From contig JBBFKY010000008.1 of NCBI GenBank assembly GCA_037481875.1, positions 1 to 64,000 on the forward strand: a DNA stretch of 64,000 nt. Direction: 5' to 3'. The notes beneath the pieces are model-generated. The model was not told the DNA's origin and ran no database searches. It saw only the letters and a program-made list of their open reading frames with translations. This DNA comes from Desulfosoma sp. (GTDB lineage: Bacteria > Desulfobacterota > Syntrophobacteria > Syntrophobacterales > DSM-9756). This document shows, piece after piece, positions 23,907-36,707 of this stretch. Within the stretch, counting starts at the first letter, position 1; each line of letters begins with the position of its first letter. Both the position numbers and the translations under genes were made by a program.

Positions 23907-26098
23907 CAACCCATGCCCCTCGAGACATCAAAACTTATCGACAAAGGCTTCGCCACGCTCTGGACAACACCTTTCTTCGCCAAACCCTCGAGACCTTCGC
24001 CGGCGCTTATAGGGAATCTCGCGCCAAAGCCTTTGAAGGCATCGACCTGGAATCCCTCATCGACGATATCGCCCGCCGTAAAGCTTCCGCCCTGCCTCGA
24101 TTGGAAGAGCTGTTCATTCAGTTTAAACAACGAGCGGAAGCCGCCGGCGCCGTGGTGCATTCCGCCAAAACGGCACAGGAAGCCAACGAACTCATTGCCG
24201 CCATCGCTCGTGAAAACGGAGTCCACAAAATCATCAAATCCAAATCCATGACGGCGGAAGAGACTTTTCTCAATGCCCATTTGGAAGCACAAGGTTTCAC
24301 GGTTACGGAAACAGACCTGGGCGAATGGATTATCCAGCTGCGCCGCGAAGGCCCTTCCCACATGGTGCTTCCCGCCATTCATCTTTCCAGGTATCAGGTC
24401 GCGGAACTTTTTGAAAAGGTTACCGGAGAAAAGCAAGATCCCGACGACATCGAAAAAATGGTCAAAGTGGCCCGGCGAACTCTTCGCCGAGCTTATCTGG
24501 AAGCCGACATGGGGATTTCCGGAGCCAACTTTGCCGTGGCCGAATCCGGGACGCTGGGTCTGGTGACGAACGAAGGCAACGCTCGGCTGGTAACCACACT
24601 GCCCAAAGTCCATGTGGCTCTGGTGGGCTACGACAAGCTTGTGCCCGACCTGGAAACCGCTTTAACCATTCTGAAAGCCTTGCCGCGAAACGCCACAGGA
24701 CAAATCATTTCCACGTATGTCACCTGGATTACGGGGGCGGTGCCGTGCGCAGCTTCGTCTACCGATCGAAAAATTCTGCACATTATTTTTTTGGACAACG
24801 GCCGTTTGTCCTTGGCCAGGGATCCGGTCTTTTCCCAAGCCCTTCAGTGCGTGCGATGTGGAGCCTGCGCCAATGTATGTCCCATCTATCGTCTGGTAGG
24901 AGGTCACAATTACGGCCATGTCTATATCGGCGCTATCGGGCTGATTCTGACGGCTTTTTACCATGGCGTGGAAAACGCCCGGGCTTTGGTCATGAACTGC
25001 CTCAACTGTCAGGCCTGCAAGGCGGTCTGCCCCGCCGGCATCGATCTTCCGTACCTGATCAAGAACGCCATGCGCCATGTTCTGGATCAGGAAGGCCGCC
25101 GGCCCATCAAAAACATGGTGCTTGCCAAGATTCTCAAGGACCGAAAACTTTTCCACTTCCTGCTCCGTCGCGCAGCTCTGGCTCAAAAACCTCTAGCTGG
25201 CAAGGAACCTTTTCTTCGACATCTGCCGCTCTTTTTTGACAAAGCACACGGATTTCGTAGCCTTCCCGTGATTCAAGCCGTTCCTTTTCGAGACCGTTGG
25301 CCTCGCCTTCAGCCCCAAGTTAAAGACGTAAAATATCGAGTCACGCTATTCGGTGGATGCCTTGTGGATTTCGTGTATCCCGAGCAGGCGCAAGCCGTGC
25401 TGCCTCTCCTTGCCGATCACGGCGTCGCCGTGGATTATCCCGTGGACCAAACCTGCTGCGGGCTTCCGGCGCTCATGGCTTCGGAAAAAGAAACGGCTCG
25501 AGATGTGGCCGTGCACAACATAAAGAGCGTGGACTTGAGCCGCACCGATTGGATTCTCACCCTGTGCGCCTCGTGCGGCTCACACATGAAGGAAAACTAT
25601 CCCAAACTTCTTGCCGGCGATCCCGTGTGGGAAAAGAAAGCACGGCAATTCGCCGAAAAAGTCATCGATTTCAGTTCATTTCTGCACGATCGGCTCAAGG
25701 TTTCCCCGGAAATTTTCACCTCATCCCAACAAAAAGTCGCTTACCATGCCCCGTGCCACCTGTGTCGAGGCCTCAAAGTGGAAAAAGCCCCTCGAGCCCT
25801 TCTCAAAACGGCCGGCTTTCAGTACGTGCCCACAAAGGACGAAGATGTGTGCTGCGGCTTCGGGGGATCCTATTCCCTGGAATTTCCTGAAATTTCTGCG
25901 GCTTTATTGCAGAGAAAACTGGATGCCGTAGAGGCGGCCGAAGCATCCATGTTGGTCACCGACTGCCCGGGATGTGTCCTTCAGCTTCGAGGCGGCGCAC
26001 ACAAGCAAGGGCGCCCGGTCCGTGTCTGTCACATCGCCGAAGCCGTCGCCCTCACGTACCGAAAAATGGCTGCCGGCACCGAGTCAAAAGATTCTTGA
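23903..26098 (+). CDS. Fused LutB-LutA L-lactate dehydrogenase iron-sulfur protein
   Basis: This 731-aa fusion has the LutB order first: a LUD domain (about residues 50-300, with AVAESGTLGLVTNEGNARL), then two [4Fe-4S] motifs CVRCGACANVCP (~315) and CLNCQACKAVCP (~366). It continues into a LutA/GlcF-like half with two CCG motifs, CCGLPA (~516) and CCGFGGSYSLEFPE (~650). In Bacillus these are two proteins; in sulfate reducers they are often one. The ATG overlaps the lutC stop. It is expected to oxidise L-lactate in the cytoplasm or at the membrane face, passing electrons toward menaquinone. GC-rich palindromes follow the stop. Confidence 0.93.
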   Translation: MTTHAPRDIKTYRQRLRHALDNTFLRQTLETFAGAYRESRAKAFEGIDLESLIDDIARRKASALPRLEELFIQFKQRAEAAGAVVHSAKTAQEANELIAAIARENGVHKIIKSKSMTAEETFLNAHLEAQGFTVTETDLGEWIIQLRREGPSHMVLPAIHLSRYQVAELFEKVTGEKQDPDDIEKMVKVARRTLRRAYLEADMGISGANFAVAESGTLGLVTNEGNARLVTTLPKVHVALVGYDKLVPDLETALTILKALPRNATGQIISTYVTWITGAVPCAASSTDRKILHIIFLDNGRLSLARDPVFSQALQCVRCGACANVCPIYRLVGGHNYGHVYIGAIGLILTAFYHGVENARALVMNCLNCQACKAVCPAGIDLPYLIKNAMRHVLDQEGRRPIKNMVLAKILKDRKLFHFLLRRAALAQKPLAGKEPFLRHLPLFFDKAHGFRSLPVIQAVPFRDRWPRLQPQVKDVKYRVTLFGGCLVDFVYPEQAQAVLPLLADHGVAVDYPVDQTCCGLPALMASEKETARDVAVHNIKSVDLSRTDWILTLCASCGSHMKENYPKLLAGDPVWEKKARQFAEKVIDFSSFLHDRLKVSPEIFTSSQQKVAYHAPCHLCRGLKVEKAPRALLKTAGFQYVPTKDEDVCCGFGGSYSLEFPEISAALLQRKLDAVEAAEASMLVTDCPGCVLQLRGGAHKQGRPVRVCHIAEAVALTYRKMAAGTESKDS

Positions 26099-26234
26099 AT
26101 AAGAAAAGTTTCCAAATGGAGGGAAGATCGAAAAAAGCCGGTTTCAATCCGTTTCCAGGAAAGTGCGCCGGAAGCTGGTTGACGAACACCCATGCGAACT
26201 TGCCACGTTCTTGACATCTAACCCCAGAAAAAGC

Positions 26235-26350
26235 CCGTCGAGGCGGCCCCATGTGTCCGCCCGGAAACCCCAAACCCCGTCGAGGCGGACCGACGTCTCC
26301 GCCTATAAACCCAAAACCCTGGAGGGGCGAACCCATGTGTCCGCCCCAAA
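26235..26350. repeat. Cluster of three degenerate dispersed palindromes
   Basis: Three successive units share a gGCG(G/A)-C(C/G)-(C/A)-(A/C)TG-TCCGCC core with AAACCCC or AAACCC linkers: 26238-26262, 26280-26306 and 26322-26346. They lie between the convergent lut and CoA-transferase genes and belong to the same class as 12298 and 43508. Confidence 0.65.
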
Positions 26351-26383
26351 ATCGCTCAAAGCCCTTTCTGAAACAAACCTCTT

Positions 26384-28378
26384 CTACAGCTTCTTCAGCG
26401 CCTCTCGAGCCTCTTCGGCCCTCACGTAAATATGAGGAGCCACACCCCTTTTGGCCAGAGCATCCCCCAGCTTCATCCGCAAAAACGCACTGGTCGTATA
26501 ACGAGTGACCCCTGAGTAGTAATGGTCGACCAGGTATTTGACCATGTCCGTGTAAGGATCGACCACGTCTGGAAAAATGGTGAAATTGTCGTAGTTGACT
26601 ATGGCGTACACTTTGTGCCCCAAAGGTTTGAGGATCTTTTCGACGGCTTCCCGAATGACTTCCACTTCTTCCAAAGTCTTGACACTGAAGCCTTCGAAAT
26701 TGACGAAGAAAAGATTTTCTTTGGGGTCGAAGACAAGACGTTGTTCCAGGGGCAGAGAAAGCAATTCTGTCTTGAGGTCCATGGGTTCGTCCCAAAAGAT
26801 GCGATCATCCATGAGACGGGGTGTGCCTCGCACAATAGGCTTAAAGTCCATATGGGCCAAGATGTCCCGCTCCAGGTCCACGCCTGGAGCGATTTCCACC
26901 AGTTCCATGCCCTCTCCGGTGAGAGAGAACACACATCGTTCCGTGACATAGAGCACGGGTTTGTTGCGCCGAACAGCATAAGCCCCGCTGAAGGTGACGT
27001 GTTCGACATTGGAGACAAATTTTTTCGATTTTCCTTCCTCAAGAATGCGCAGTGTGCCGTCTTCAACAGCCACCTTAAGCCCACCCGCCGTAAAGGTTCC
27101 CATGAAGACGACTTTCTTGGCGTTTTGGCTGATGTTGATAAACCCTCCGGCACCTGCGATTTTGGGGCCGAATTTGCTCACATTGACGTTTCCTAAAGCG
27201 TCCGCTTGCGCCATGCCGAGAAAGGCAATGTCCAAACCACCTCCGTCATAAAAGTCAAATTGAGCTGTCTGATCGATGACCGCATCCGTATTCACGGCAG
27301 CTCCAAAATTCAAACCTCCTGCAGGCATCCCGCCGATCACCCCCGGTTCGGCGGTCAGGGTGAGATATTCGAGAACTTTTTCTTCCACAGCCACATTGGC
27401 CACCCCTTCAGGCATACCGATGCCCAAATTGACCACACTGTTCGCCTTCAGTTCAAAGGCAGCCCGCCGTGCAATGATTTTTCTTTCATCAAGCGGAATG
27501 GAAGGCACGGTGGTCATCGGCACACGAATTTCGCAAGAAAAGGCCGGATTGTAAGGCACTGCAAAGGTTTGCCAGTGGTTTTTCGGAGAAGCCACCACGA
27601 TACAGTCTACGAGTATCCCTGGAATTTTGACCTGGCGGGCGTTGAGGGTTCCTCGCTCGGCGATACGTTCCACCTGCGCGATTACAAAGCCCCCGCTGTT
27701 GTGCGCCGCTGTGGCCAAGGAAAGGGTTTCCAGGGTCAGAGCTTCCCGTTCCATGGTGATATTGCCGTCGGTGTCCGCCGTGGTTCCGCGAATAATGGCC
27801 ACATGGATGGGAAAGGTCTTGTACGCAAGAATCTCTTCCCCGTCGATGATCATGAGTTCCACCAGGTCTTCCGTGGTGATGTTGTTCAGTTTGCCGCCGC
27901 CGTTTCTTGGGTCCACAAAGGTTCCCAAACCGACGGTGGTGAGGGTTCGCGGTTTTTTGGCGGCAATATCTCGATACATGTGCACGATGACCCCTTGGGG
28001 CAGATTGTAGGCCTCGATCTTGTTCTCCATGGCCAAACGCTGGAGTTTAGGGACCAGGCCCCAGTGACCTCCCACCACACGCTTGATCAGGCCTTCATGT
28101 CCCAGATGATTCAGGCCGCGGTCTTTCCCGTCGCCCTGACCGGCGGCATAAAAGAGGGTAAGATTTCTCGGCTTTCCTGTTTCCAAGAAACGCTTTTCCA
28201 GGGCGATGGCCACTTCTTCGGCAAAGCCGATGCCCACGAAGCCACTCGTTGCCACAGTGTCTCCATCGCGAATGACTTGAACGGCTTCCTGAGCGCTGAC
28301 AATCTTCCCTTTAGGCGTTCTTTGGGGAGGATAAGGGGAGAGAAAGGGGTGGGTTCCTGAGACAATTTGATTCGTCAT
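26384..28378 (-). CDS. Family I acyl-CoA:acetate/propionate CoA-transferase, long form
   Basis: This single-chain family I CoA-transferase (664 aa) combines the alpha-type half ([12 protein letters not shown] near residue 45, [21 protein letters not shown] near 80) and the beta-type half with the catalytic Glu in [15 protein letters not shown]. It resembles YdiF and propionate CoA-transferase. About 110-130 extra C-terminal residues ([15 protein letters not shown]... to the end) form a small alpha/beta unit not present in shorter homologues. AAGGAG before the ATG at 28378 sets the start; the open frame extends 38 codons upstream without support. It could activate lactate-derived or short-chain acids with acetyl-CoA. 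No operon partner. Confidence 0.92.
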
Positions 28379-28547
28379 GCCCGCTCCTTGTATGGTTTGT
28401 TGTGTGTGAAATAAAGCCACGGTGTTGTGATTTGCCTGCAAACTTTTCCAAATCGGGTTTTCCCTTTGGAGCACGGAGTTCCGGTCCGCCATTTGGCCGA
28501 CGGCACGTTCGCACTTCCACGGGAGTATTCCATTTTCAGGTTTCTAC

Positions 28548-28570
28548 GGGCGAGGCGCCGCCACGCCCAC
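28548..28570. repeat. Dispersed palindrome, GGGCGAGGCGCCGCC type (imperfect)
   Basis: This is an imperfect copy (GGGCGAGGCG/CCGCCACGCCC) of the palindrome found perfect at 34011 and 34861. Confidence 0.65.
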
Positions 28571-28637
28571 ACCTTTGAAACGGCACTTCATCTAACGATG
28601 TTTGTGATTCTCGGAAAGGCAACCGGCTCCAAGGTGA

Positions 28638-29255
28638 TCAAAGTTCAAGCCCTTGATTTTTAAAGAAACGGCGAAGCTCTATGGGGTCCCGGTAAAGATG
28701 GGAAACCATCCCCAAGGCTGCGGCCGCTTCCACGTTTTCCTTTGCATCATCGACAAACAGGACGTGGTGGGGACAGACTCCCAACCGATTCAGAACCAGC
28801 TCGTAGGCTGCCTTCCACGGCTTTCGTACGCCTTCCTCGGCTGAGCAAAAAACCGCATCGAAGAAATGCAGAATACCCCAACGCTCCAGCCATGACGACA
28901 ACCCTCGAGGAGCGTTGGAAAGAACCGCCAGAGGCACACGCCCATGAAGGCTTCGAATCATGGAGATGACCGGTTCATTGGGTCTTTCGTCCGCCTCATA
29001 CCGGGCTCGAAAAGCCTCCACGGCTTTGACATCGTGCAGGCCCAATCGAGGCCCGATAACGTGCCAGTATTCCTCAAGGCTTCGGCGACCCAGCAAAGTC
29101 TCTTCCCACACGGGATCATCAAACATGATACGATTGATGGTTCCCAAGGGGAGGTTGAGATCCCTTTCGTAGCTTTCAAAAAGGCTCACCGGTTTGGGCG
29201 CGGAGATGACTCGCCCGAAATCGAACAACACCGTGCGTGGGTAGTTCCGCACCTT
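28638..29255 (-). CDS. HAD-IA family hydrolase
   Basis: This protein of about 205 aa is a probable small-molecule phosphatase. Motif I reads VLFDFGRV, motif II VLSNAP, motif III RKPWKAAYE and motif IV LFVDDAKENV. The second Asp of the usual DxD motif I is replaced by Gly (D-F-G), as in several dehalogenase-like members, which may change the reaction. The GTG at 29255 with AAAGGG upstream is my preferred start; a TTG at 29294 would add 13 residues. It is divergent from the four-gene S51/GNAT/GT4/PIG-L cluster (75 bases between starts) and may supply or trim a phosphorylated intermediate for it (speculative). Confidence 0.82.
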   Translation of the reverse strand, partial: KVRNYPRTVLFDFGRVISAPKPVSLFESYERDLNLPLGTINRIMFDDPVWEETLLGRRSLEEYWHVIGPRLGLHDVKAVEAFRARYEADERPNEPVISMIRSLHGRVPLAVLSNAPRGLSSWLERWGILHFFDAVFCSAEEGVRKPWKAAYELVLNRLGVCPHHVLFVDDAKENVEAAAALGMVSHLYRDPIELRRFFKNQGLEL

Positions 29256-29329
29256 GTCATTCCCTTTCAAAAACCTTAAGTTTCTGGGTGTCAATCAGCA
29301 TCGAAAGCTGGAAAGGTAGGTTCATCGAA

Positions 29330-30679
29330 ATGAACCAGTCCTCGCACTTGCATCCACCACAGGTTATGCCCGCCGGCTGTCTGGTGCTCATGGGATCGGG
29401 GGAACTAACCGCCAGCATGGTGGAAGTGCACAAATCCCTTCTTCGATCCAAAGGCCCCGATCCACTGGCCTTCTTTATCGATACTCCCGCCGGATTTCAA
29501 CTGAACGTGGACGAGATTTCCAAGCGTGCTCAGGAATATTTTCAAACCCGTGTCGGTCGTCCTTTGCATGTGGCCTCTTTGAAATCCCGTCACGACATGG
29601 AAACACCTCAGGGACGCCGAACACTCAAGCAGTTGCAACAGGCCGATTACATTCTCATGGGTCCAGGTAGTCCCACCTATGCCGCTCGACATTGGATCGG
29701 TTCCCCTGTACCGAACCTTCTTCGATCCCGGTTGGCCGACGGGGCCGTGATCACGGCCAGTAGCGCCGCCGCCCTCAGTTTCGGATGGAAGACACTGCCC
29801 GTCTATGAAATCTATAAAGTAGGTATGGACGTGCATTGGACGGAGGGCATCGACCTTTTGGAACCGTGGGGTCTGCGCCTGGTTATTGTCCCTCATTGGA
29901 ACAACGCGGAAGGAGGAACCCACGACACACGCTTTTGTTACATGGGAAAGGCGCGGTTTCAGGTTCTGGAAAAGCTCCTTCCTTCCGATGCCGTCATTGT
30001 CGGCATTGACGAGCATACGGCTCTCATTATGGATTTTTCTCAAGGCACCGCCGCTGTTCGCGGCGTAGGAACCGTGACCCTGAGAAAAACTTCCGCGTCG
30101 TATGAGAGAGTGTTTTCTTCAGGGGACACTTTTCCGTTGAGTGTTCTCTGGGCCCTTGGCACCGATGTCACGAACATAGCGGAAGAGCTTAAGGTTTCCC
30201 TAGGCGTGGCGGCTGATTCCTCCACGATCTTACAAAGTGATACCGAATCCATGTGTCAGCCGCCATCTACGCCGGACCCTGAAGATTTCCGGTCCGTGCT
30301 TCGTCATGCTGAAGATCGTTTGGAACAGGGTTTGACACACCGCAATCCAGGGGACACAGCGCGAGCCCTCCTGGACTTGGACCGACTCCTATGGGAAGCT
30401 TCAACCTTAGGGGTCCCTGCCGAAGATCTTTCTCAAGGCCGGGAAACCTTTCGGGAATGGCTCGTTCAAACGGCGCAGCGTCTGACCTTGTCACTCGAGG
30501 ATAGACGAGTGGTCTTAACTCCTTTCGTGGAGGAAATAGTCCGGCTTAGACAAAAGTTTCGACAACAAAAACTGTGGCCTGTGGCCGATGTTTTACGCGA
30601 TTTTCTTGCCGCACACGGCGTCATTGTGGAAGATATGCCGTCGGGCCCCCGTTGGCATTGGATTGATGGAGAAGGTTGA
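29330..30679 (+). CDS. S51-like (cyanophycinase/type-1 GATase-like) protein with CysS/YqeB-type C-terminal domain
   Basis: The first ~250 residues look like a peptidase S51/cyanophycinase-type fold, with LMGSGELTA near 20, FIDTPAGFQ near 50, YILMGPGSPTYAARH near 112 and a nucleophile-elbow-like ITASSAAALSFG near 145. The Ser is preceded by Ser rather than Gly, so activity is uncertain. After a linker the last ~90 residues form helices ending in KLWPVADVLRDFLAAHGVIVED and GPRWHW, closely like the C-terminal helical domain of cysteinyl-tRNA synthetase. No HIGH or KMSKS motif is present, so it is not a synthetase. Its stop overlaps the GNAT gene by 14 bases. Confidence 0.78.
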   Translation: MNQSSHLHPPQVMPAGCLVLMGSGELTASMVEVHKSLLRSKGPDPLAFFIDTPAGFQLNVDEISKRAQEYFQTRVGRPLHVASLKSRHDMETPQGRRTLKQLQQADYILMGPGSPTYAARHWIGSPVPNLLRSRLADGAVITASSAAALSFGWKTLPVYEIYKVGMDVHWTEGIDLLEPWGLRLVIVPHWNNAEGGTHDTRFCYMGKARFQVLEKLLPSDAVIVGIDEHTALIMDFSQGTAAVRGVGTVTLRKTSASYERVFSSGDTFPLSVLWALGTDVTNIAEELKVSLGVAADSSTILQSDTESMCQPPSTPDPEDFRSVLRHAEDRLEQGLTHRNPGDTARALLDLDRLLWEASTLGVPAEDLSQGRETFREWLVQTAQRLTLSLEDRRVVLTPFVEEIVRLRQKFRQQKLWPVADVLRDFLAAHGVIVEDMPSGPRWHWIDGEG

Positions 30680-31688
30680 CATCGTGGGACGCGAATGGGC
30701 TGAAACGACGGTGACCATCATCGATAACCTGGATCCCTTATGGTCTGCGTGGCGAAACGCCCGCCATCTGTGGAAGGGTGTTCCTATTTTTGTCACGCCG
30801 CCATGGCTGGAGGCCTGGCACAACACACTGGGTCAAGGCACCACCTTGAGTCTCTGGATCGCTCGTGGTCCCGGTGGTTTTGAAGGGTATTGCCCTTTGA
30901 AAGTCTTCAAAGAGGTCGGGGTTTTTGCAGGAGATCCCGAGGTGTGCGACTATTTCGATGTGGCGGCCGTACCGGGAAAAGAAGACGATGTCTGTCGGGC
31001 TTTCGTCCAGGCGGCTTGTCATATGAGTTTGAAGGCTTTGGACCTTTTCCCCGTGCGTCCTGCATCGAAGGTCATGACCCATTTGGCGCCTTTGTGTCGG
31101 ACTTTAGGGTATGGTGTTTCCGTGGAACGCAGCGACGTGACGGTGGAAATGCCTCTCGATGGATCCTGGGAAGGTTACCTGCAGAGTCTCAATGGAAAAC
31201 AACGTCATGAAGTCCGGCGCAAAATGCGTCGGCTGGAAGAAGCCGGATCCGTCCGGTTTCGGGTGGTGACTTCCCCGGCAGAAGTGGAACCGGCGCTGGA
31301 AGTTTTCTTTCATCTTTTTCAAAGCAATCGCGACGATAAGGCCCGTTTTCTCACCCCATCGGTCAGAGCTTACCTGGAAGCCTTGTGCCGCACCATGGGC
31401 CACGAAGGCATGTTGCGACTATCCATTCTTGATTTAAACGCGTCTCCTGTGGCCTCCGCGTTGTGTTTTGATGACGCTGAAGCTGTTTTCCTATATAACA
31501 ACGGCTACGACGCCGCTTTCGGCCACCTGAGCGTCGGGCTCATGCACACGGTCTTCACGATCAAAGATGCCGTGGAGCTTGGGCGTAAACGGTATGAATT
31601 CCTGCGCGGCGATGAAAACTACAAGTTTAGATTGGGAGGACGCGAAGTTCCCTTGTATCGTGTACGAGTCTCTTTGGACACGGTTTAG
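30666..31688 (+). CDS. GNAT/FemAB-like (CelD/BcsL family) acyltransferase
   Basis: This 340-aa protein has the double-GNAT, FemAB-like layout of the CelD/BcsL group: VTPPWLEAWHNTLG near residue 40, a basic LNGKQRHEVRRKMRRLEE segment near 180 and LGRKRYEFLRGDENYKFRLGG near the C-terminus. Such proteins transfer acyl or aminoacyl groups to sugars or peptides. The ATG at 30666 lies inside the end of the preceding gene, and the GT4 gene follows after 27 bases, so it is the second gene of a tight operon. With the GT4 and PIG-L partners, acylation of an amino-sugar is a reasonable guess. Confidence 0.88.
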   Translation: MEKVDIVGREWAETTVTIIDNLDPLWSAWRNARHLWKGVPIFVTPPWLEAWHNTLGQGTTLSLWIARGPGGFEGYCPLKVFKEVGVFAGDPEVCDYFDVAAVPGKEDDVCRAFVQAACHMSLKALDLFPVRPASKVMTHLAPLCRTLGYGVSVERSDVTVEMPLDGSWEGYLQSLNGKQRHEVRRKMRRLEEAGSVRFRVVTSPAEVEPALEVFFHLFQSNRDDKARFLTPSVRAYLEALCRTMGHEGMLRLSILDLNASPVASALCFDDAEAVFLYNNGYDAAFGHLSVGLMHTVFTIKDAVELGRKRYEFLRGDENYKFRLGGREVPLYRVRVSLDTV

Positions 31689-31715
31689 GAAAATCCTTCG
31701 AGGAACGGAAAGTTC

Positions 31716-33182
31716 ATGCGCATGTGCCACCGGTTCGATTTTCGGTCCTCAAGACCCGCCGGAACCAGTGAGCGCCCAAGGGGTCCACGGCTTCGTATCG
31801 CCATGGTCTGTGCCCATTCCAATCCTCTGGGACCCCTCGGACGCCGAGATACGGGAGGCATGAGCGTCTACATTCGCGAAATGTCTCGAGCTTTGGCTTC
31901 CCTCGGGCACATGGTGGATCTATTCGTGGGAGAACCCTTGGACGGGCCGACCTTTCTGGATAATGAAGAATCCAAGGAAACCCTGCAACGCTACTTTGGG
32001 CCCAATGTGCATTGGGTCTCCGTGCCATGCTCGACCAAGGCACCTCACAACCCTTCAGAACTGATCAAAACGACGAAATCGTTTCATCAAGCCATTCTCA
32101 GAGCTTCCCAAGACCAAGCCGTATGGACCAAGACTTTACCGGCCGCTTTTGAACACCACTTGAAGCATACGGGGAATGCTAAGACAAAGCAAAGGCCCTT
32201 TGACGTCATCTTCAGTCATTACTGGCTTTCGGGACTTGCCGGGCTTGCCACGGCTCATAGCCTGCACTTACCCCATGTGATCATGTTTCATACATTGGCT
32301 CATTCCAAGGCGGAAGCTTTAGGGCGAACCGTGGATTCTTCTTGCCGCGTGTGCGCGGAACACTTGGTGGCTTCCCAGAGCCATGGTGTGCTGGCTCCCA
32401 CCGACTCGGAAAAGGAAGCTCTGATGACCCATTACGGCGTTTCACCAAGCCGCATCGCCGTGGTGCCCTGTGGCGTGGATGGATGTCTCTTTCGACCGAA
32501 GGACAGGCTTTCAGCACGTCGACAACTTCAGCTCCCTTTAGATGCCCTCGTGTATCTTTTCGTCGGACGTCTCGATCCCATCAAAGGTCTAGAGCGTCTC
32601 TTTGATGCTTTTGCACGCCTGCCTCGGTCAATACCGGCACGGCTTCTGGTGGTCGGAGGAGACGTTTCCGAAGAAAAATCCCTTGAAGCCTTTCGTAAGA
32701 TGGTCGAGGCCCACGGTCTTTCTCGACGAGTCATCTTTGCAGGTCGAGTGGAACAGGCTCGACTTCCGGATTTTTACGCGGCTGCCGATGCCTTGGTGAT
32801 TGCTTCCCATTACGAAAGCTTTTGTTTGGTGGCTTTGGAAGCCTTGGCTTCAGGAACACCTGTGGTGGGACCTCCTGTGGGGGTTTTACCCGAGGTCTTG
32901 TCCCGGCCGGAGGCAGGCGTGTTGCTTCGAGACAACAGCCCTGAAGAACTTCTTCGAGGACTTACGGCCATCGCCAAAGACCGATCGGGAACCGACGCTC
33001 GTCACGTGGCGGTACGCCGGGACATCTCTCTACGATATTCATGGAACCGGGTGGCTCAGGATTTAGCCCAGGCCTTGAGCGACCTCATCTATCCCGACGG
33101 GATTTTCAAAGATGAAAGGGAGACTGGATTCAATGGACTCCATCGATGCTCTCGTTATTGCAGCGCATCCGGACGATCCTGA
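31716..33182 (+). CDS. Family 4 glycosyltransferase, MshA/sucrose-phosphate-synthase-like
   Basis: This 488-aa GT-B enzyme has an N-terminal acceptor domain beginning IAMVCAHSNPLGPLG followed by DTGGMSVYIREMSRALA, the same pattern as MshA (VHTSPL...DAGGMNVYV). Its C-terminal donor domain has FVGRLDPIKGLERLFDAFARL near 285 and SHYESFCLVALEALASGTPVV near 370, including the E-x7-E motif. MshA joins GlcNAc to inositol phosphate (established), but acceptor choice cannot be read here. The last 50 bases overlap the PIG-L gene from 33133, and the final ~15 residues look non-conserved. It lies between an acyltransferase and a deacetylase gene, as in thiol-sugar pathways. Confidence 0.9.
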   Translation: MRMCHRFDFRSSRPAGTSERPRGPRLRIAMVCAHSNPLGPLGRRDTGGMSVYIREMSRALASLGHMVDLFVGEPLDGPTFLDNEESKETLQRYFGPNVHWVSVPCSTKAPHNPSELIKTTKSFHQAILRASQDQAVWTKTLPAAFEHHLKHTGNAKTKQRPFDVIFSHYWLSGLAGLATAHSLHLPHVIMFHTLAHSKAEALGRTVDSSCRVCAEHLVASQSHGVLAPTDSEKEALMTHYGVSPSRIAVVPCGVDGCLFRPKDRLSARRQLQLPLDALVYLFVGRLDPIKGLERLFDAFARLPRSIPARLLVVGGDVSEEKSLEAFRKMVEAHGLSRRVIFAGRVEQARLPDFYAAADALVIASHYESFCLVALEALASGTPVVGPPVGVLPEVLSRPEAGVLLRDNSPEELLRGLTAIAKDRSGTDARHVAVRRDISLRYSWNRVAQDLAQALSDLIYPDGIFKDERETGFNGLHRCSRYCSASGRS

Positions 33183-33825
33183 ATTCGGCGCTGCAGGAAC
33201 CATCGCCAAATGGACGCGCGACGGAAAAAAGGTTGTTTATGTCATTTGCACGGACGGGGATAAGGGTACCAATGACCGCTCTATGGACCCCAAGGACCTC
33301 GCCCGGATTCGTCAGGAAGAGCAGAGGGCTGCAGCGCGTGTGCTCGGGGTTCAGGATGTGGTGTTTTTGCATTACCCGGATCAAGGGCTCGAGGATACGC
33401 CTGATTTCCGAAAGGAACTGGTCCGCTGGATTCGGTATTTTCGACCGAGTATTGTGCTTACTTCGGACCCGTACCGGCGCTATTTATGGCATCGGGACCA
33501 TCGCATTGTGGGCCAAGTGGTTATGGACGCCCTTTTTCCTTATGCTCGGGACCATCTCGCTTACCCTGACCTTTTAACCGAAGGACTGGAACCCCATAAG
33601 GTCAAGGAAGCCTGGTTTTGGGCAGCGGAAGACATCAATCATCGGGAAGATATTTCGGAGACTTTTGAGATCAAGATCGCAGCTCTTCAGTGCCATGTCA
33701 GTCAGTGGAACGCTCATCCGGTGCGGGATATTCGAGCTTGGTTGGAAGAGCGGTTTCGAAAGACCGCTCAAGGGACTCCTTACACTTATGCGGAAGGGTT
33801 TCACCGAGTCTTCCTGCCCGAATGA
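33133..33825 (+). CDS. PIG-L/LmbE-family N-acetylglucosaminide deacetylase, BshB1-like
   Basis: This 230-aa zinc-dependent deacetylase has AAHPDDPEFGAAG near residue 10, carrying the His-Pro-Asp-Asp metal/catalytic motif, and HRDHRIVGQ near 122, carrying a further metal-ligand His. The length matches BshB1 (about 235 aa) rather than MshB (about 300 aa). I take the ATG at 33133, with GGGAG upstream; an ATG at 33112 would add seven residues. The gene overlaps the end of the GT4 gene. It should remove an N-acetyl group from the product of that glycosyltransferase (inference). Confidence 0.92.
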   Translation: MDSIDALVIAAHPDDPEFGAAGTIAKWTRDGKKVVYVICTDGDKGTNDRSMDPKDLARIRQEEQRAAARVLGVQDVVFLHYPDQGLEDTPDFRKELVRWIRYFRPSIVLTSDPYRRYLWHRDHRIVGQVVMDALFPYARDHLAYPDLLTEGLEPHKVKEAWFWAAEDINHREDISETFEIKIAALQCHVSQWNAHPVRDIRAWLEERFRKTAQGTPYTYAEGFHRVFLPE

Positions 33826-34010
33826 ATCACGAGGAGCCTGCCCGAGAGTTTGGAGGGAGCCGCTTCAAGCTAAGATCTAGAGGCACGGCACGTCGTGCCC
33901 CAACGTCTCGAGCCTTTTATGTTTCCGGGAGCGCGAGCATTCCAACCACCTTAAGGCCGGGCCCAAGGCCCGCCCCCGCCCAGGTAAAAGGGGCCGGCTT
34001 CGTCTTTGCT

Positions 34011-34033
34011 GGGGCGAGGCGCCGCCTCGCCCC
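34011..34033. repeat. Dispersed palindrome GGGGCGAGGCG-CCGCCTCGCCCC
   Basis: A nearly perfect 23-base palindrome between convergent genes. Copies lie at 34861 (one mismatch), 28548 and 61406. Confidence 0.75.
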
Positions 34034-34085
34034 TATCTTGAAATGGCCTTATAGACCTTGGTGTTGCGAGTTCTCGGGCATGTTT

Positions 34086-34724
34086 CTAGGTCCAAACCAC
34101 GTCCCCGCAAAGGTTTTCCGGGTAACCCCTTCGCAGGAAAGCTTCAAAGGCCTTCCGTTCATAGCCTATGTTGGTCGGAGGACCATGGCCAGGAAACACC
34201 AGGACGGTGTCGGGCAGAATAAATATCTTGCGGGCAAGAGAATCGAGAATTCGGCGAAAAGCATCAGGGCTATCCGTATGGCCCGGGCCGTTGGGAAAGA
34301 GGGTATCTCCAGAGAAGAGGACATTCTGAAAGGACAGGCAGACACTTCCGGGTGTGTGACCAGGAGTGTGGCTCACGTGGACTGTCAAGGAGCCTGCGGT
34401 AATTTCCTGATCCTCCTCGAAGACCATGTCTGGTTTGACGGGAAGTCGAGGCGCATCCAGCGCATGAACCCAAACGGGAACGCCTGTTTTTTCCACGAGA
34501 CTCTCAAGCCCTTGGACATGATCTCCATGGGCATGCGTGATCACCACTGCGCTTAAGGTTCCCTGAAAAGTGACGGTGTCAATACCCAAAGGCGCATCGA
34601 TGAGAAGCCCGAAGCCTGTTTTTCGGCACACCAGTTCATAAGCGTTTACGGCATAGGGACCCAGAGTGTACCGGGTGACAAGGGCTTCCCCCAAGGTCAA
34701 CAAAACACCGTCTTTCAGCCTCAT
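34086..34724 (-). CDS. Metallo-beta-lactamase-fold hydrolase, glyoxalase II-like
   Basis: This 212-aa MBL-fold protein has the zinc motif THAHGDH near residue 62, HTPGHTPGS near 118 and FSGDTLF near 133. The third-ligand His lies in FPGHGPPTNIGYERK near 185, the pattern of glyoxalase II-like hydrolases. Its natural substrate could be a thioester such as S-lactoyl-thiol. The thiol-like cluster just upstream, though in convergent orientation, makes that worth noting (inference only). It stands alone, flanked by palindromes on both sides. Confidence 0.9.
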   Translation of the reverse strand: MRLKDGVLLTLGEALVTRYTLGPYAVNAYELVCRKTGFGLLIDAPLGIDTVTFQGTLSAVVITHAHGDHVQGLESLVEKTGVPVWVHALDAPRLPVKPDMVFEEDQEITAGSLTVHVSHTPGHTPGSVCLSFQNVLFSGDTLFPNGPGHTDSPDAFRRILDSLARKIFILPDTVLVFPGHGPPTNIGYERKAFEAFLRRGYPENLCGDVVWT

Positions 34725-34860
34725 CGCTTTCCCTTTTCAGATAAAAAGCCCCAGGAACTGCAAGCGATGTCTAACGAGCCGCTGGAGACCCTGTCATTTC
34801 GCCGGTGCCTGGGAGCCTGTTCAAGAACAGGCAAGACCATGTTTGTTATATTGCAAGGTC

Positions 34861-34883
34861 GGGGTGAGGCGCCGCCTCGCCCC
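34861..34883. repeat. Dispersed palindrome GGGGTGAGGCG-CCGCCTCGCCCC
   Basis: This copy differs from 34011-34033 by one base and lies between the MBL and proS genes. Confidence 0.75.
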
Positions 34884-34949
34884 GACAACCCTGAACCTGT
34901 ATCTTTCCTTGCCGTGCTTGCCTGAACCTATGTCTTTTCTTTCTGTGTT

Positions 34950-36707
34950 TTAGGACGCTTCGGGCAACAAGGGCAGCCCGTCCAAGGAAGGGATCAGATC
35001 GGCAACGATTCGGGTCAGAGCGCTTACCATTTCTTCTCGGCCGTAAAAAGACACTTTTCCCGTTTTGCGCACTTTCACTTCATAAGTCCCTTGCTTCAAA
35101 CCTCGCTGACTCACCACCACACGAATGGGAATACCCAAAAGGTCTGCATCCTTGAGCTTCACCCCTGGAGACTCGTCCCTGTCATCGTAAAGGACTTCCC
35201 AGTGTTTTCGAAGTTCTTCGTACAAAGCGTCCGCCGCTGTATCCACTTCAGAGCTTTTGCCTAAGGTCGTAAGGATCACCTGGAACGGGGCGATGGTCAC
35301 CGGCCAAATGATACCCGCCTCATCGTGCCACTGTTCCACGGCGGAGGCCATGAGCCTTTCCACGCCGATGCCGTAACACCCCATGACCACTCTGTGGTTT
35401 TCCCCGTCTGCTCCAAGAAAGGTCACATCCATGGTGTCCGGCGCGGTGTACTTGGTGCCGAGCTTGAAAGTGTGTCCCAGCTCGATGCCTCGACGGATTT
35501 CCAGCCGGCCCGTGGCACATTGAGCGCATGTGTCCCCTGAACGCACCTCCGCTATGTCCGCTTGTTCCGAGATCTGAAAATCACGACCGGGTAAAACGTT
35601 TTTCAGGTGCACATCAATAGCGTTTCCGCCTGCAATGTAGAGGGTTTCTTGGCCCACGGACGTATCCACAACGATCCGAAGGTCTTTGCCCTGGAGACCC
35701 ACGGGGGAAAGAAAGCCGCCGTAAAGTCCATGCTTTTCGAGCAGATCTTCGGAAGCCATGTCCACACGCACAGCTTTAATATGGTTGGCCAGCTTGGTCA
35801 CCGAAATATTAAAGTCCCCCCGAACCACCCCCAACACCAGACGGCCGTCCGCGTCATAAGCAACTGTCTTGAGAAAATGGTCTTCAGTGGTCTGAAAGAA
35901 ATCCATGAGTTGCGCGATGGTTTTAATTCCTGGTGTGGCCACTGCGGCCATGGCTGGAGGATCTGCCGGAAGGTCCTTGACGGCTGGTTTCACCCCCACG
36001 GCTTTTTCCGTGTTGGCCCTGTAGTCGCAATGAGTGCAGATCACAAATTGGTCTTCTCCATAATTGGATTCCAGCATAAATTCATGGGATCCCGTACCCC
36101 CCATAATCCCTGTATCCGCTTCAATGGGCACGGCGTTCAGCCCGCAGCGCGCAAAAATGCGTAAGTAGGCGTTGTAGATTCTTGGATAATAGCGGTCCAG
36201 ATCCTCAAAGTCGGCATGAAAACTGTAAGCGTCCTTCATTTGAAATTCACGCACTCGAAGCAGGCCCGCTCGAGGTCTCGCTTCATCGCGAATCTTGGTC
36301 TGAATCTGATAAAGCATCACCGGAAGATCCCTGTAGGATCGAAGGAACTTCTTGGCGATGTCCGTGACGATTTCTTCGTGGGTCATGGCCAGCACGAATT
36401 CCCGCTGTCGCCGATCCCGAATGCGAAACAGTTCCTGCCCAATGTCGAAATAGCGCTTGGTGGCTTTCCACAATTCGGCTGGGTTAAGCACGGGCATGGT
36501 CACTTCAAGGCCGTCGATCCCGTCCATTTCTTCCCGAATAATCTTTTTGACCTTTTCAGCCACCCGGTGCCCTAAGGGCAGCAAGGAATAAATGCCGGCA
36601 GCCGCCGGATAAATGTAGGAACCTCGAAGCAGCAGCACATGGGACGGCGTCTCGGCTTCCTTGGGCACTTCGTACTGGGTGTGAATAAAACAGCGGCTAT
36701 AGCGCAT
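34950..36707 (-). CDS. proS: Prolyl-tRNA synthetase (bacterial type, with editing insertion)
   Basis: This class II synthetase charges tRNA-Pro. The 585-aa length and order fit the bacterial form. The N-terminal catalytic domain has [20 protein letters not shown] near residue 28, motif 2 around [19 protein letters not shown] and [17 protein letters not shown], an editing (INS) domain from about 225 to 400, then [11 protein letters not shown] and the anticodon-binding domain to the end. An AAAGGAGG site precedes the ATG. It is transcribed alone; upstream and divergent is the cysteine-cluster protein gene. Confidence 0.97.

Follow-up and report, generated by a model that had tools for sequence, protein, structure and literature searches.

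What does a gene cluster make when it encodes enzymes reminiscent of mycothiol synthesis, together with a protein which carries a tail of the cysteinyl-tRNA synthetase (CysRS) type? This question is raised by a locus of Desulfosoma sp., located in the 64,000-nt stretch of contig JBBFKY010000008.1 that was analysed here (the window). Five open reading frames were found at positions 28638-33825: four genes on the same (+) strand, encoding a peptidase S51-type hydrolase with a CysRS-type tail (S51C), a FemABX-fold protein (FEM), an MshA-like GT4 glycosyltransferase and a PIG-L deacetylase, and a divergent (-) gene for a HAD hydrolase. Pfam and NCBIfam scans of the locus proteins confirmed this gene content, which the original prediction had read as a possible thiol or amino-sugar conjugate pathway, and S51C indeed has no HIGH/KMSKS ligase core. 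The answer that we consider slightly better than evenly balanced is a low-molecular-weight thiol resembling mycothiol: a cysteinyl-glucosaminyl-cyclitol that would be close to des-acetyl mycothiol and would receive its cysteine from Cys-tRNA(Cys). We infer every reaction, donor, acceptor and product of this pathway from gene content, synteny, co-occurrence, conserved residues, predicted folds and the missing known ligases.

The possible source of the cysteine is suggested by the C-terminal tail of S51C. The window protein itself lies under the Pfam cut-offs for both of its domains (Peptidase_S51, 18.5 bits for a cut-off of 23.9; CysS_C, 22.7 bits for a cut-off of 23), and both are secured by family-level evidence, namely the profile comparison of the tail with CysRS and the Foldseek matches. 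The tail (approximately the last 45 residues) aligns without gaps to the CysRS of the same order (hhalign probability 98%, 43% identity), and its residues R407, R411, W416, D420, R423 and D435 correspond, with identical spacing, to R423, R427, W432, D436, R439 and D451 of E. coli CysRS. In the E. coli enzyme, G34 of the tRNA-Cys anticodon is contacted by R427 and D436 through hydrogen bonds, by W432 through stacking and by R423 through water (PMC12684709). Over 84 S51C tails, the G34-contact positions are almost completely conserved (R407 84/84, R411 83/84, D420 84/84, and an aromatic residue in 84/84, being W in 71, F in 9 and Y in 4), and so are the remaining positions R423 and D435 (84/84 each). 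The W/F/Y variation is that of a real CysRS, since the order's own CysRS has F at this position. Given this invariance, and given that S51C homologues of approximately 40% identity in other families retain the full set of contact residues, we reject both a chance match and a decayed ligase remnant. The retention of the anticodon-reading residues suggests Cys-tRNA(Cys) as the cysteine source; S51C is predicted to bind tRNA-Cys via this domain, and we hold the involvement of tRNA-Cys in the pathway with reasonable confidence.

In the S51 domain, S145, H189 and E228 are invariant in 85 of 85 sequences and, judging from the alignment, would form its Ser-His-Glu triad; C203, H198 and D199 are also kept. 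When the AlphaFold model of S51C was submitted to Foldseek, the top 20 matches were all S51, cyanophycinase or PepE structures, and the first match outside S51 was the E. coli CysRS-tRNACys complex (1u0b, probability 1.00). In this last superposition Foldseek aligned 149 columns, including the helical linker (residues ~300-404); nevertheless, we do not claim the linker as a CysRS helix bundle, the profile comparison of the linker alone being non-significant (probability 4). The least certain part of the proposal is the chemistry of the S51 domain, which may form an acyl-enzyme in the transfer, act on the completed thiol or on its conjugates as an amidase (a Mca-like role) or serve as a proofreader.

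The second protein that bears on the cysteine step is FEM, originally described as a FemAB-like GNAT and set beside MshD. Its predicted model (mean predicted local distance difference test score of 93) has a double-GNAT, FemX-like fold, and its top 15 Foldseek matches in the PDB (probability 1.00) are enzymes that depend on aminoacyl-tRNA, or soluble domains of such enzymes; among them are Sbb17 and Sba18 (both in structures with streptothrisamine), FemX, FemA and MprF. The template-modelling scores are 0.62-0.66 for Sbb17 and FemX versus 0.48 for acyl-CoA tandem GNATs, which appear lower in the list, and the MshD models gave no match to FEM in the NCBIfam scan (the MshD search covering the proteins of the locus). 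The fold thus lies closest to aminoacyl-tRNA-dependent FemABX transferases rather than to MshD. FemX and DhpH-C have a catalytic lysine in common (K305 and K329, the latter following F328); in FEM, the pair Y319-K320 is invariant in 30 sequences, its equivalence to those lysines being judged by motif only. An amino-sugar acceptor also has a precedent among these transferases, in Orf11/BD-12. We therefore treat FEM as a candidate aminoacyl-tRNA-dependent transferase, a fold alone not being proof of the donor.

Precisely because the FEM fold does not fix the donor, and the acceptor is itself putative, the product could instead be a non-thiol, that is, an acylated or aminoacylated glucosaminyl-cyclitol (a compatible solute, a signal or a headgroup), with acyl-CoA or a different aminoacyl-tRNA as the donor for FEM and a purely hydrolytic or regulatory role for S51C. 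The presence, in approximately 35 loci, of ThuA/GFO-IDH-MocA sugar or cyclitol oxidoreductases between S51C and FEM would fit such a product. This explanation, however, accounts neither for the conserved CysRS anticodon residues of a cluster-linked S51C nor for the neighbouring glutaredoxin-thioredoxin reductase fusion and GloB-like hydrolase, and we consider it unlikely, if still worth keeping in mind.

The sugar half of the mycothiol-like thiol reading is based on GT4, PIG-L and the phosphatases. The window GT4 scores 228 bits on the MshA model TIGR03449 (cut-off 462.5) and 86 bits on BshA, its family profile matches C. glutamicum MshA over the full length (362 bits), and the GT4 proteins of distant lineages reach 338-348 bits on the MshA model, one of them (at L165) adjoining FEM and an inositol monophosphatase. 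The positions of MshA Y110, T134 and R154, which we take to bind the phosphate of the acceptor, show no variation in the GT4 family. The PIG-L protein finds its best NCBIfam model in BshB1 (107 bits, cut-off 182.5), with 46 bits on the MshB model (cut-off 224); in its family (n=21) the mean column identity is 73% and the HPDD and HRDH metal-site motifs are invariant. A second PIG-L gene lies in the window's genome at C1:51016. None of the locus proteins reached a mycothiol or bacillithiol equivalog cut-off in NCBIfam, so that names such as MshA or BshB1 would be over-claims. The HAD hydrolase is a candidate phosphatase for the sugar-cyclitol phosphate (an MshA2-like step). Near the cluster in relatives, a HAD hydrolase is found in 16 loci and a histidine phosphatase in 12, never both; as an indication that the two are mutually exclusive substitutes this is only suggestive, an absence of overlap having a chance of ~0.07. 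Additionally, Ino1 (myo-inositol-1-phosphate synthase) is encoded near the cluster in 9 loci and is present in the window's genome. We hold with good confidence that the product is an amino-sugar glycoside. The mycothiol-like pathway originally proposed is strengthened by the Ino1 and phosphatase genes beside the cluster in relatives, and the earlier interpretation is only partly supported, the product itself being putative.

If a thiol is made, is one of the known ligases responsible for it? The genome searches for mshC, bshC and gshA, which could have overturned the thiol reading, retrieved none of them in the window's genome. In particular, none of the order's 39 genomes gave a BshC match (3 of the controls did), the GshA domains PF04107 and PF04262 are absent from the window's genome (GshF-type fusions were not tested apart from these domains), and no MshC-type or MshC-sized CysRS paralogue was found in the window's genome or in its family. 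The CysRS-type proteins of this genome are the canonical CysRS and a cysteine-synthase/CysRS (CysK-CysRS) fusion of 782 aa (L111:4923-7271 (+), G000:C3), which has lost HIGH and KMSKS and kept DALR_2 and CysS_C; almost every genome of the order has a CysRS match within a frame sized like this fusion. It could be argued that the cysteine is joined by an enzyme encoded elsewhere, such as a CysRS-derived ligase, with FEM as an MshD-like acetyltransferase and S51C as a tRNA-Cys-binding hydrolase (a Cys-tRNA deacylase or a thiol-conjugate amidase) tying thiol supply to translation. S51 enzymes are, after all, hydrolases, and CysRS-type paralogues do exist, in the form of the fusion and of a truncated protein with HIGH and KMSKS. 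The truncated paralogue, however, was not found in G000-G007, the 8 genomes of the window's family, each of which carries S51C, and its distribution over the 39 genomes does not track that of S51C; the fusion has no HIGH or KMSKS, and FEM has no match to the MshD models. An external ligase appears to us improbable.

The genes form a conserved module. S51C is present in 14 of the 39 genomes of the window's order, where the loci have the arrangement HAD(-), S51C, FEM, GT4, PIG-L(+), often followed by a convergent GloB-like hydrolase (a few end at a contig edge or have one gene missing next door), and a HAD orthologue occupies the same divergent site in most relatives. A scan of GTDB genomes returned at least 563 related stretches; the best 80 of these belong mainly to Desulfobacterota (with some metagenome-assembled genomes labelled Nitrospirota), and two cultured species, Desulfacinum infernum (DSM 9756) and D. 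hydrothermale (DSM 13146), are among the carriers of the cluster. Among the 52 of the 80 loci with sufficient flanks (>=8.2 kb beyond the S51C start), FEM and GT4 were each found in 46, PIG-L in 41 and the full trio in 38. The synteny of the module is far beyond chance, since the best FEM, GT4 and PIG-L matches over the 80 loci are all on the S51C strand (175/175). The co-occurrence of the four genes in relatives, on which the thiol reading could also have failed, is therefore upheld. A profile of the cluster PIG-L picks the same 14 of 39 genomes as S51C (Fisher p 6.6e-11 if kinship is ignored, such statistics being inflated by the relatedness of the genomes), and the presence and absence of the two genes are in step within family f2. 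In a sample of the phylum, S51C was found in 40 of 395 genomes and 24 of 246 genera; the PIG-L co-occurrence in this sample (31/33 S51C-positive versus 0/10 negative genomes) was down-weighted, because the PIG-L matches examined in family f23 have unrelated neighbours and seem to belong to a different subfamily. Family f42 has a split cluster: FEM, GT4 and PIG-L stand together, and S51C is located apart from them. Diverged S51-CysS_C proteins that do not adjoin FEM, GT4 or PIG-L, and that still keep the anticodon-contact residues, were seen in other families of the phylum (L145:8057-9169, L146:56-1147, L147, L148, L149 and L152).

Exopolysaccharide loci often contain FemAB-like and GT4 genes, and the NCBIfam scan gave weak matches to XrtA-associated FemAB and polysaccharide glycosyltransferases, which would suit a locus that decorates a cell-envelope polysaccharide or glycolipid. 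Yet the recurrent neighbours included nothing recognisable as a flippase, polymerase, polyprenyl-phosphate transferase or exporter, and the best matches of GT4 (MshA and a sucrose-phosphate-synthase-like enzyme) use small phosphorylated acceptors; a role in envelope decoration is, in our opinion, very improbable.

Several observations weigh against the synthesis of a mycothiol-like thiol from Cys-tRNA(Cys). On the sugar side, the GT4 profile matches a sucrose-phosphate-synthase-like protein equally to MshA, the position of MshA N25 is mostly S in the GT4 family and that of K78 is P in the window GT4, so that the acceptor may not be inositol phosphate. The presence of Ino1 is uninformative, being near-universal in the order (38/39 genomes), and it was rejected as a discriminating co-occurrence marker. 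Concerning the transfer step, other Acetyltransf_6 proteins may have the FemX fold and yet not use tRNA. Some genomes have S51C without the remaining genes adjacent, and for 13 metagenome-assembled genomes with a FEM-less S51C locus a FEM match was found elsewhere in 8 (one being a weak fragment with a stop) and not at all in 5. Finally, a CysRS paralogue of 416-420 aa, with HIGH and KMSKS and no anticodon domain, exists in 22 of the 39 genomes (in the sister family f2 only), where it could be an MshC-like cysteine ligase, perhaps of another pathway.

Taking both sides into account, the pathway that we propose would run from inositol phosphate (Ins-P) through GlcNAc-Ins-P, GlcNAc-Ins and GlcN-Ins to Cys-GlcN-Ins. 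GT4 would attach N-acetylglucosamine (GlcNAc) to inositol phosphate, the HAD phosphatase (or, in relatives, a histidine phosphatase or an inositol monophosphatase) would strip the phosphate, and PIG-L would take off the acetyl group to leave a free amine, onto which FEM would move cysteine from Cys-tRNA(Cys). In this scheme the canonical CysRS would charge tRNA-Cys, S51C would hold or deliver it through its CysRS-type anticodon domain, and the S51 serine-hydrolase domain could form an acyl-enzyme during the transfer or serve later as an amidase or proofreader. More tentatively, and at somewhat less than even confidence, we suggest that a tRNA-dependent thiol pathway exists across Desulfobacterota, in which a FemABX-type transferase and an anticodon-reading serine hydrolase replace the ATP-dependent ligase; in its strongest form, the hydrolase would carry the cysteine as an acyl-enzyme.

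Table 1. Features of the locus and related CysRS paralogues (coordinates are positions within the window, except those preceded by a locus label)
Feature	Position	Strand	Evidence and remarks
HAD-IA hydrolase	28638..29294	-	PF00702 1e-14; TTG start at 29294, true start may be further in
S51C	29330..30679 (ORF 29237-30679, likely ATG 29330)	+	S51-type serine hydrolase domain (residues ~1-275), helical linker, CysRS-type anticodon-binding domain (~402-445)
CysS_C tail of S51C	30533..30664	+	Gapless CysRS alignment; R407, R411, W416, D420, R423, D435
FEM, FemABX-fold (Acetyltransf_6), candidate aminoacyl-tRNA-dependent transferase	30666..31688	+	PF13480 3e-34; Foldseek
MshA-like GT4 glycosyltransferase	31716..33182	+	TIGR03449 MshA 228 bits; start codon uncertain
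PIG-L (LmbE-type) deacetylase	33133..33825	+	PF02585 9e-36
GloB-like metallo-beta-lactamase-fold hydrolase	34086..34724	-	PF00753 1.5e-20; GloB model 75 bits, under cut-off
Truncated CysRS paralogue (example)	L112:6534-7784	-	416-420 aa
Truncated CysRS paralogue (example)	L113:7100-8362	+	416-420 aa

The genes are tightly packed, the ATG of FEM (30666) overlapping the S51C stop and that of PIG-L (33133) the end of GT4. The GloB-like hydrolase, whose gene converges on that of PIG-L both here and in many relatives, lies outside the core set and is possibly a thiol-ester hydrolase associated with the cluster, maybe using the proposed thiol. In the ~35 loci mentioned above (including L037, L039, L049, L058 and L104, many from Desulfobacterales), S51C and FEM are separated by one or two oxidoreductases of the GFO/IDH/MocA type, of which one has an additional N-terminal portion (ThuA-like by eye); these enzymes may modify the sugar or cyclitol. 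Upstream of S51C in three loci (L037, L058 and L102) there is a fusion of a glutaredoxin-like part (WCPDCR) and thioredoxin reductase, as might be expected of a thiol-disulfide system. A defence system was rejected (none of the five locus proteins has a PADLOC match). The Rfam comparison of 26000-36000 gave no match, which speaks against a T-box or other known RNA element. A dedicated tRNA-Cys near the cluster was also rejected, the window having no tRNA and 60 related loci holding a single one, a tRNA-Leu.

Compared with mycothiol synthesis in Actinobacteria, which proceeds through MshA, the MshA2 phosphatase, MshB, MshC and MshD (PMC9736012), the gene set of the cluster runs parallel except at the cysteine step: an MshA-like GT4, a phosphatase, PIG-L and a GNAT-fold enzyme are common to both, with Ino1 encoded in the genome and, in some relatives, next to the cluster, whereas the cluster has no MshC, its GNAT is FemABX-like and not MshD-like, its GT4 and PIG-L lie under the mycothiol model cut-offs, it contains the additional S51-CysS_C protein and its host belongs to Desulfobacterota. 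The bacillithiol pathway (BshA, BshB and BshC) shares a GT4 and a PIG-L protein with best model BshB1, but BshC is missing from all 39 genomes of the order and the cluster GT4 is much nearer to MshA than to BshA. With the FemABX transferases (FemX, MprF and Orf11/Sbb17 of streptothricin-class antibiotics) FEM shares the double-GNAT fold, an invariant aromatic-Lys pair near the C terminus (equivalent as judged by motif) and the amino-sugar acceptor precedent; unlike them, it has no recognisable sequence similarity to the solved members, and the proposed Cys-tRNA donor with a separate tRNA-reading partner would be new. S51C, in turn, shows both the peptidase S51 fold (cyanophycinase, PepE) and the CysRS anticodon domain, with their catalytic and contact residues, and differs from both in fusing the two domains with no synthetase catalytic core. 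In the open PMC literature we found no description of such a fusion (nor any text with both 'peptidase S51' and 'cysteinyl-tRNA'), nothing that links amino-sugar thiols to aminoacyl-tRNA-dependent synthesis, and no amino-sugar thiol or assigned small-molecule thiol in these sulfate reducers; the S51-CysS_C protein has apparently been undescribed so far.

The cluster is thus a concrete candidate for a small thiol in sulfate reducers that have no glutathione, bacillithiol or mycothiol ligases. If the proposal is true, S51C would represent a novel type of protein, in which a borrowed anticodon-reading domain guides a hydrolase fold, and the redox buffer of these bacteria would be fed straight from the translation pool, which is not the case in the known thiol pathways.

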